Part shown: positions 24,761-60,569 of the stretch, piece after piece
Numbering within the stretch: the first letter of the stretch is position 1
Layout: each line of letters begins with the position of its first letter
NCBI GenBank assembly: GCA_020052375.1
Contig: JAGVPG010000032.1
Location: 1-64,000 of the forward strand
From: Actinomycetota bacterium
GTDB lineage: Bacteria; Actinomycetota; JAHEXW01; JAGVPG01
Length of the DNA stretch: 64,000 bases
Direction of reading: 5' to 3'
Translations under genes and position numbers: made by a program
Notes under the pieces: model-generated
Told to the model about the DNA's origin: nothing
The model's input: only the letters and a program-made list of their open reading frames with translations
Database searches by the model: none

Positions 24761-25303
24761 ATGAAGATACTGGTACACACCTGCTGCGGGCCGTGCCTCA
24801 TCTATCCGGCAGCGCGCTTAAAAGAGGGCGGCTTTGAGATAGCAAGCTTTGCCTACAATCCGAACATCCATCCTTACAGTGAATACCTGGAGAGGATGCA
24901 GACGCTGGCGCGATTTTGCGCGGCCAATGATATACATCTAACGGAGGGCGACTACGACTTTCACGATTACTTGAAGAGAGTCTCTTTGAGCGATGAAGAC
25001 CGCTGCGGATTATGCTACGAGATGAGACTGGATAAAGCCGCGAAGACCGCCGTTGAAATGGGATTTTCGAGTTTTACTACGACTTTGCTGGTCAGCCCGC
25101 ATCAGAAACACGCTCTAATAAAAGAGAAGGGCGAGAAGGCCGGATTGAAACACGGCATCCTGTTCTATTACGATGATTTCCGCCAGGGTTATCAACAGGC
25201 AGTAGCTCGTTCCAAGGAGCTTGACATGTACCGCCAGAAATACTGCGGATGTATCTACAGCGAGCACGAAAGATATGGGAGCAAGAAGATCAAAGCTGTA
25301 TGA
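24761..25303 (+). CDS. queH: Epoxyqueuosine reductase QueH
   Basis: QueH reduces epoxyqueuosine to queuosine in tRNA, the last step of queuosine synthesis. It is the non-cobalamin alternative to QueG and is common in anaerobes. The 180-residue protein has the adjacent C8-C9 pair in HTCCGPC, the DRCGLCYEMR motif (C82, C85) and the YRQKYCGCIYSE motif near residue 165. These provide the iron-sulfur and metal ligands of the DUF208/QueH family. The stop overlaps the queA start (ATGA), so QueH and QueA are translated together. Confidence 0.95.
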   Translation: MKILVHTCCGPCLIYPAARLKEGGFEIASFAYNPNIHPYSEYLERMQTLARFCAANDIHLTEGDYDFHDYLKRVSLSDEDRCGLCYEMRLDKAAKTAVEMGFSSFTTTLLVSPHQKHALIKEKGEKAGLKHGILFYYDDFRQGYQQAVARSKELDMYRQKYCGCIYSEHERYGSKKIKAV

Positions 25304-26325
25304 AGACCTCGACTTTCGACTACCGGCTTCCTCCGGAACTGATAGCACAAAAACCAGCTTCTCCGCGTGACTCATCAAGACTCCTGGTGGTCGACAAAGC
25401 TACTGAAACGACCGAACACCGCCGTTTTTCAGATCTGCTTGAATATCTTAAGGCCGGTGATTGTCTTGTAATGAACGAGACGAGAGTCATACCGGCGAGA
25501 CTTATAGGGAGGAAAAAACACTCACACGGGCAGGTCGAAGTCTTTCTGTTAAGGCAGGTGGATCACGCGGCATGGGAGGCGCTCGTCAAACCCTCACGGC
25601 GCCTGAAAGAAGGAGCCGTCGTGGAGTTCGATGGAAGCGATGTGACGGCAACGATCGGGAAGACGCTGGAAGACGGGAAACGCCTGGTCGGATTCGACTA
25701 CGAAGGATCTTTTGAGAAAGTGCTTGAAAAGTTGGGCCGGGTACCACTTCCTCCGTATATAAAGCAACCGCTCGATGATCCGGAACGATATCAGACCGTG
25801 TACGCAAAAAACAGCGGATCTGTCGCGGCACCGACCGCGGGGCTTCATTTTACCTCAAGGATGCTGGAGAAGTTACGCTTAAAAGGTATTGAATCCGTAA
25901 AGGTCACCTTGGATGTGGGCCTTGGGACATTCAGGCCGGTCCAGGCAGAGGATGTGGAAAGCCACAAGATGGAACGCGAGAGGTTTTCCATATCTGAAGA
26001 GACCGCGACGGCGGTCAATATGGCAAAGCACGAAGGGCGCCGTGTGATCGCCGTCGGGACGACGTCGGTCAGGGTGCTCGAATCGGCAGTGCGGGACGAC
26101 GGTCAAGTCGAACCGTGCGATTCGGAGACAGGGCTTTTCATCTACCCCGGTTATAGGTTCAAAGTCGTCGATTGTCTGCTGACTAACTTTCATCTTCCCA
26201 GGTCATCACTACTCCTGCTGGTTTGTGCCTTTGCCGGGACCGAGCTTATAATGGATGCATACAAACAGGCGATACAGGAGAGATACAGGTTCTACAGTTT
26301 CGGGGACGCGATGTTCATATGGTGA
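25300..26325 (+). CDS. queA: S-adenosylmethionine:tRNA ribosyltransferase-isomerase
   Basis: QueA transfers the ribosyl part of S-adenosylmethionine to preQ1-modified tRNA, forming epoxyqueuosine. The 341-residue protein begins MKTSTFDYRLPPELIAQKPASPRDSSRLLV, with DCLVMNETRVIPARL, the VAAPTAGLHFT motif and the final FHLPRSSLLLLVCAFAG block, all diagnostic of QueA. ATG 25300 is chosen because it overlaps the queH stop and matches the family start; the longer upstream frame lies inside queH. It overlaps the downstream exonuclease start by 7 bases. Confidence 0.97.
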   Translation: MKTSTFDYRLPPELIAQKPASPRDSSRLLVVDKATETTEHRRFSDLLEYLKAGDCLVMNETRVIPARLIGRKKHSHGQVEVFLLRQVDHAAWEALVKPSRRLKEGAVVEFDGSDVTATIGKTLEDGKRLVGFDYEGSFEKVLEKLGRVPLPPYIKQPLDDPERYQTVYAKNSGSVAAPTAGLHFTSRMLEKLRLKGIESVKVTLDVGLGTFRPVQAEDVESHKMERERFSISEETATAVNMAKHEGRRVIAVGTTSVRVLESAVRDDGQVEPCDSETGLFIYPGYRFKVVDCLLTNFHLPRSSLLLLVCAFAGTELIMDAYKQAIQERYRFYSFGDAMFIW

Positions 26326-28397: not shown

Positions 28398-30015
<1,618 letters not shown>

Positions 30016-59826: not shown

Positions 59827-60140
59827 TGGCTCCCCGGGTAGGACTCGAACCTACAACACTGCGGTTACGGTTTCTCCTACGGTTTCCCGCAGGACCGGAC
59901 TATCTCATCGTCCGCATGGGACGTCGGGCGCTGGTAGGGTATTATCGGCCAGGAGTCCTCAACCCTTAGTCTCTGCACGTTCCTGCTTACATTTCATCCT
60001 GTTCGGCAGGCTTCGCTCAGGATCACCTACTCATTTTGAGCGTACGGTTTCCCTGAATTCACCCAATTTTCCACTACAGCTTACGCTATAGCGCTGCGTT
60101 TAAACACAGCCGCATGCTCTACCGATTGAGCTACCGGGGA
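59827..60140 (-). tRNA. tRNA-Asn(GUU) interrupted by a group I intron in the anticodon loop
   Basis: On the minus strand the exons are 60140-60106 (35 nt) and 59867-59827 (41 nt), joining to a 76-nt tRNA including CCA. Arms: acceptor TCCCCGG/CCGGGGA with discriminator G and encoded CCA; D stem GCTC/GAGC; anticodon stem TGCGG/CCGCA with loop CTGTTAA (anticodon GTT); variable GTGTT; T arm GTAGG-TTCGAGT-CCTAC. The intron splits the anticodon between U35 and U36. A GUU anticodon is a substrate for the queuosine enzymes encoded here. A promoter lies at 60159-60187. Confidence 0.93.
59868..60105 (-). ncRNA. Group I self-splicing intron in tRNA-Asn
   Basis: The 238-nt intron lies between U35 and U36. 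P1: the exon end GCTGT pairs with GCAGC (intron positions 9-13), giving the conserved U-G pair at the 5' splice site; the last intron base is G. Core elements are in order on the minus strand: P (AATTCAGGGAAACC), Q (GATCCTGAGCGAAGCC), R (GTGCAGAGACTAAG) and S (GACGATGAGATAGTCC). P4 (CAGG/CCTG) and P7 (AGACTA/TAGTC) can pair. No reading frame is inside. It is of small size, like known bacterial tRNA introns. Splicing activity is inferred, not shown. Confidence 0.92.
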
Positions 60141-60266: not shown

Positions 60267-60569
60267 ATGGATGCTAGAACTTACTCTGATAGGCGCGAAT
60301 ATCTGATTAAAGCAGTAAAAAAGCGCCGGAAGCATATCCGACAGCAAGCTATTGCTGCTTTAGGCGGTAAATGTCAAAAATGCGGATATGCTACCTGCTT
60401 AGATGCTTTAGAGTTTCATCATGTTGATGAAAGTTGTAAAGATTTTGGGATTTCAAGCAAAGGATACACGAGAAGCTGGGATTGTGTTAAGCGGGAATTG
60501 GATAAGTGTACGTTACTATGCGCTAATTGCCATCGTGAATTACATGCATTAGTGAATACGAATTCTTAG
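60267..60569 (+). CDS. Small HNH-motif protein
   Basis: This 100-residue protein has an HNH-type nuclease motif: C36xxC39 (GKCQKCGY), H51-H52 (LEFHHVD) and C85xxC88-H89 (LLCANCHRELH), the zinc-bound HNH layout with no other domain. Residues 1-30 are very basic and may bind nucleic acid. TATAAT at 60255-60260 lies only 6 bases before ATG 60267, so the mRNA may be leaderless. The gene is AT-richer than neighbours and lies divergently next to the intron-bearing tRNA, as free-standing homing endonucleases sometimes do. A link to intron mobility is inference. Confidence 0.8.
   Translation: MDARTYSDRREYLIKAVKKRRKHIRQQAIAALGGKCQKCGYATCLDALEFHHVDESCKDFGISSKGYTRSWDCVKRELDKCTLLCANCHRELHALVNTNS

Follow-up and report, generated by a model that had tools for sequence, protein, structure and literature searches.

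We found that positions 59827-60140 of the window, i.e. the whole 64,000-nt stretch of DNA analysed here, hold a tRNA-Asn(GUU) gene on the minus strand (60140 to 59827) that is split between U35 and U36 by a group I intron, and this assignment was confirmed by several lines of analysis. With high confidence we read the insert as a probable self-splicing intron of a mobile intron-HNH family that most likely spread by homing, the HNH endonuclease gene having most likely moved out of the intron in this lineage. The Rfam model RF00028 (Intron_gpI) matches positions 60115-59876 with 82.4 bits (E=2e-19, cut-off 50 bits); the match is complete (model positions 1-253) and is the only Rfam match within the 64-kb window. 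ARAGORN detected no tRNA in the raw window, but without the 238 nt the sequence gave a perfect tRNA-Asn(gtt) cloverleaf. The program's intron mode, run on the precursor, miscalled the gene as tRNA-Ser. The intron boundaries (60105 and 59868) were assigned on the basis of the spliced tRNA, the U-G splice pair and the terminal G at 59868; in the relatives described below the terminal G was imposed by the search pattern and is independent evidence only for the window intron. The original prediction, made from the letters alone, was right on the coordinates, on a length of 238 nt, on a junction between U35 and U36, and on the terminal G and the U-G pair within P1. Its assignment to the group I introns is borne out by the Rfam score and by an intact core with covariation, and its claim that a tRNA-Asn assembles on removal of the insert by the ARAGORN cloverleaf. 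All features are compiled in Table 1.

Table 1. Position of the split tRNA-Asn gene, the structural elements of its intron and the neighboring HNH gene (numbering of the window)
Feature	Position	Strand	Remarks
tRNA-Asn 5' exon	60140..60106	minus	35 nt, tRNA positions 1-35, 3' end GGCUGU35
Group I intron	60105..59868	minus	238 nt, GUUUAAACGCAGC...GAGAAACCG
tRNA-Asn 3' exon	59867..59827	minus	41 nt from U36, discriminator G73, encoded CCA
P1 5' strand	60106..60110	minus	exon GCUGU; U35 in the U-G splice pair; no variation across the 51-intron alignment
Internal guide sequence GCAGC (P1 3' strand)	60093..60097	minus	pairs with GCUGU
P3 5' strand	60060..60066	minus	partner 59924-59930
P4-P5 domain	60017..60056	minus	P4 TCAGG/CCTGA, P5 ACC/GGT
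P6/P6a	59977..60016	minus	from the 51-intron alignment
P7 5' strand GACTA, R element	59967..59971	minus	guanosine-binding helix; partner TAGTC, S element, 59898-59902
P8	59909..59923	minus	from the 51-intron alignment
P9 with GAAA loop	59876..59893	minus	7/7 pairs with changes on both sides
HNH endonuclease gene	60267..60569	plus	100 aa from ATG; longest ORF from 60249

The P1-P9 structure was drawn on the window sequence and applied to 51 related introns. In this alignment 94.4% of cells are paired (75.2% in shuffles), 542 cells are changed on both sides (148 in shuffles) and the covariation amounts to 0.537 (0.161 in shuffles), values that none of 500 shuffles reached. Changes on both sides were found in 37 of the 52 pairs; in P3, where 97.7% of cells are paired, they affect five out of seven. 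When the 3' strands were slid out of register, pairing fell to 34-42%. Covariation is strong in P2-P6, P8 and P9, and both P1 and P7 are invariant. All 51 introns share the guide sequence and the U-G wobble that P1 forms at the 5' splice site, and because P1 never varies it yields no covariation evidence; its exon side is fixed by the choice of tRNA-Asn loci. The precursor fold lies 4.5 s.d. below shuffles. The interval between P7 and P3' measures 36 nt in the window intron and 20-60 nt across the family, and forms a hairpin in the relatives, whereas the tRNA introns of the Azoarcus/Anabaena (cyanobacterial) type, group IC3, are generally known to have a short interval at this place.

The original prediction had regarded asparagine as an 'unusual or new' host for a tRNA intron, a view at variance with the databases, in which such introns are not rare. 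A scan with a pattern reaching from the S element of the intron through the 3' half of tRNA-Asn matched 24 IMG/VR viral contigs and at least 116 contigs of GTDB genomes. Exons were reconstructed geometrically, requiring only a T before the junction and leaving the anticodon free, and at every locus with a 5' half found exon 1 ends in GGCTGT, which corresponds to the anticodon GUU split at 35/36. With a stricter reconstruction at least 138 loci from bacteria, archaea and viruses rebuild as tRNA-Asn with the same junction. In all 138 spliced tRNA-Asn sequences the intron sits within the palindrome GTTAAC of the anticodon loop (between GT and TAAC), a feature that is partly built into the search pattern. 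Judged by record title, the hosts belong to at least 26 named bacterial phyla, including Omnitrophota, Nitrospirota, Acidobacteriota, Cyanobacteriota, Elusimicrobiota, Chloroflexota and Myxococcota, and many of the loci lie in Patescibacteria. Three Pacearchaeota contigs were present among the matches listed (L112, L113 and L213), archaeal by title and with misbinning as a possibility. Their tRNA-Asn begins the acceptor stem with G1-C72 as opposed to U1-A72 in the bacterial ones, ftsZ is found nearby on two of the three contigs, and HNH-like sequence occurs inside the introns of L113 and L213. One match lies in a MAG titled Klebsiella pneumoniae, in which the contig was probably mislabelled or misbinned. 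Introns of about 207 nt, found on IMG/VR contigs that are viral by IMG/VR's own call, represent a shorter and more divergent type; one of them was run against the Rfam model and stayed under its cut-off (36.4 bits, E=8.6e-8). The shared insertion site across phyla suggests a widespread mobile element and not a one-off oddity.

Upstream of the tRNA-Asn gene, at a distance of 126 bp and in divergent orientation, we found an HNH endonuclease gene located outside the intron, which the original prediction did not mention. The ORF was identified by its match to PHROG HNH (E=1.1e-25); Pfam gave nothing at 0.01 and one HNH match below the cut-off (E=0.049). The window intron itself holds no endonuclease ORF. 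At least about 30 introns of the family carry an HNH gene in the P1 loop; in these introns, of about 420-720 nt, the homologue follows the 5' splice site and precedes the guide sequence. Third codon positions are the most variable in the HNH gene, which is therefore under purifying selection. By sequence the window HNH is a relative of those encoded in tRNA-Asn introns: among the matches listed it is 66-71% identical to the HNH of the closest sister introns (L067, L068 and L070). Across all copies found, whether intron-encoded or flanking, the identity to the window ORF covers a wide range. The window intron clusters with L031, L065, L067, L068 and L070 (99% support). Within this group L067, L068 and L070 hold the HNH gene inside the intron, and L031, from a genome of the same order (G002), has an HNH homologue that is likewise located outside, upstream and inverted. 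The P1 loop of L065, otherwise an ORF-less intron, contains a short piece of the HNH frame, noticed by eye. The intron grouping is matched by the HNH tree, which places the window copy among P1-loop copies; this tree is based on 95 columns, has modest support (86/84) and is poorly resolved. In three loci from other lineages (L119, L191 and L169) an HNH gene is present just upstream of the intron-bearing tRNA-Asn as well. Exit of the HNH gene from the intron is, on parsimony, the simplest and most likely reading of this arrangement.

The opposite direction would be that a free-standing HNH gene, acting by collaborative homing, is the older state in the clade and only later entered the P1 loop of the sister introns. 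It has been suggested that mobile introns can arise through collaborative homing (PMC3984707), and the flanking HNH genes in several lineages would fit such a course; we nevertheless consider it rather unlikely in view of the spread of P1-loop HNH genes over many phyla, among which the window copy nests (in a weak tree), and of the HNH remnant kept inside the L065 intron. We judge it improbable that the intron is immobile and vertically inherited and that an unrelated, free-standing selfish HNH gene came to lie upstream by chance. The missing ORF in the window intron and the many broadly similar HNH genes found on viral contigs (508 relatives) would agree with such a coincidence, but the best relatives found are located inside tRNA-Asn introns, those of the closest sisters included, and even the best viral match (69%) lies within a tRNA-Asn intron. 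In addition, the gene recurs at the same place and in the same orientation in the same-order genome and just upstream of the split tRNA-Asn in the three other lineages.

The genome assembly comprises 1.64 Mb in 35 contigs. In this 95.4%-complete assembly ARAGORN reported 43 other tRNA genes, which cover every amino acid but Asn, and neither ARAGORN nor a search with the spliced tRNA found a second tRNA-Asn in it. Strong matches to the spliced query were restricted to the two halves of the split gene, and the weaker ones lie at other places, which were other tRNAs where checked. A search for an intron-less tRNA-Asn elsewhere in the genome had been proposed as a check along with the original prediction, and none was present among the 43 other tRNA genes. 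Within the phylum the intron form was detected in 14 of 397 genomes. An intact tRNA-Asn pattern was found in 199 of the 397, and in 0 of the 14 intron-bearing ones. This mutual exclusion (hypergeometric P=5e-5, ignoring relatedness among genomes) is suggestive because the intact pattern is incomplete, detecting only half of the phylum genomes, and because the genomes are related. In a further genome of the same order (G001) the intron is absent and no tRNA-Asn was detected either, so this genome does not provide an intron-less sister. An assembly artefact, or an intron that has degenerated and no longer splices, together with another tRNA-Asn in the organism, as the incomplete assembly (95.4%) might allow, is very hard to reconcile with the intact core, P1 and terminal G, with the same site in independent genomes and with the absence of an intact tRNA-Asn pattern from all 14 genomes of the phylum that carry the intron. 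Provided that the assembly is representative, decoding of asparagine codons in the cell would depend on splicing.

A self-splicing, mobile intron is the preferred explanation. The window intron most likely splices itself, and from the established group I mechanism we infer two guanosine-initiated transesterifications. The guide sequence GCAGC would pair with the conserved exon sequence GCUGU to form P1, a bound guanosine would cut after U35, and the released 5' exon would then attack just past the terminal G, yielding a normal tRNA-Asn. Judging from its distribution, the family was most likely spread by homing, by means of the HNH endonuclease that many of its members encode in the P1 loop. 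In the window lineage the HNH gene most likely moved out of the intron to its present divergent position upstream of the tRNA, from which a functional endonuclease could still aid the mobility of the locus by cutting intron-less tRNA-Asn genes. We lean slightly towards a broader reading as well, in which the intron family and its HNH gene spread horizontally among bacteria, archaea and phages, the host being spared by precise splicing of its sole tRNA-Asn, and in which the endonuclease left or entered the intron several times.

Failure of splicing would leave asparagine codons unreadable, and this locus would be a natural example in which an essential tRNA relies on a ribozyme. Split genes are missed by tRNA finders, as illustrated by ARAGORN, which found none here, and genomes can therefore seem to be without tRNA-Asn. 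Since a single insertion site shows the endonuclease within the intron, reduced to a remnant and next to the gene, the question of how mobile introns gain and lose it becomes directly testable. Archaeal and phage hosts would widen the known range of group I introns in tRNAs, and if the horizontal spread outlined above is true, the Pacearchaeota loci would be the first report of such introns from tRNA genes of archaea.

The original prediction had also pointed to queuosine enzymes encoded nearby. The genes queA (25249-26325) and tgt (28930-30015) are indeed located within the window; at about 30-35 kb from the tRNA-Asn gene their proximity carries no weight, and nothing was found that links them to the intron. 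A connection between queuosine and the intron is thus speculative. Tgt probably acts on the spliced tRNA-Asn, as G34 would be engaged in the P1 duplex of the precursor.

Several further group I introns were noticed. The same genome carries a second one in the T-loop of its tmRNA (G000:C26, about 71072-71353, L044), a kind already known (PMC11915505); spliced in silico, this tmRNA gives the ARAGORN tag ADTNYALAA, and that of the same-order genome G002 (L046) the tag ANTELAYAA. Two loci of the same phylum (L072 and L075) are, as judged by eye from the flanks, tRNA-Ile2/Met(CAU)-like genes interrupted by group I introns. In Klebsiella phage Muenster (MT708547.1, L332:1441-1689) we noticed an unannotated group I intron in a tRNA (RF00028, 104.1 bits) that by eye reads CAU once spliced, with an annotated HNH gene downstream. 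In Gordonia phage Daredevil (NC_048021.1, 41862-42048, L331) a group I-like sequence, below the Rfam cut-off, splits a tRNA that is unannotated, reads Lys UUU by eye and lies near the HNH gene gp51.

Group I introns in tRNAs as such are already known. A 2014 review does not mention Asn, and the phage introns known at that time were all in protein genes (PMC3984707). For tRNA-fMet and Ile2, group I introns are reported in the tRNAscan-SE 2.0 paper (PMC8450103), a 2021 paper mentions them in unspecified tRNAs of genomes that are mostly Patescibacteria (PMC8172020), and a 2018 survey of archaea listed 39 introns, all of them in rRNA (PMC6125680). None of the papers found in our literature search reports a group I intron in tRNA-Asn, be it from bacteria, archaea or phages. 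As cited in PMC12641178, a preprint of Nakagawa et al. (2025) describes group I introns in tRNAs of Patescibacteria with 'a novel insertion site'. Many of the tRNA-Asn relatives lie in this very group; to judge from that citation the preprint may concern tRNA-Asn, and the family may already be described.

Among the known systems, the tRNA-Ile intron of Azoarcus (PMC3984707) resembles the window intron in being a group I ribozyme of about 200-300 nt that splits the anticodon loop, and shares with it the U-G pair of P1, the terminal G and the P3-P8 core. It differs in its host, which in the window is tRNA-Asn with the site between U35 and U36, and many members of the tRNA-Asn family carry an HNH gene in the P1 loop. 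The cyanobacterial tRNA-fMet intron (Bonocora and Shub 2001, as described in PMC3984707) is likewise located in the anticodon region and has its own tRNA-gene-specific endonuclease, whereas the endonuclease in the window is of the HNH type and encoded outside the intron. The T-loop introns of tmRNA, known from 21 phyla (PMC11915505), also reside in a structural RNA, and the genome studied here contains one, but host and site are different, and the endonucleases reported for them are of the LAGLIDADG type, encoded in P7.1 or after P9. Collaborative homing, finally, in which a free-standing endonuclease is aimed at the insertion site of an intron (Zeng et al. 2009, as described in PMC3984707), offers a parallel to the flanking position of the HNH gene. 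The cases described there concern phage protein genes, whereas here the putative target is a cellular tRNA gene, and the tRNA-Asn relatives carry the same endonuclease inside the intron.
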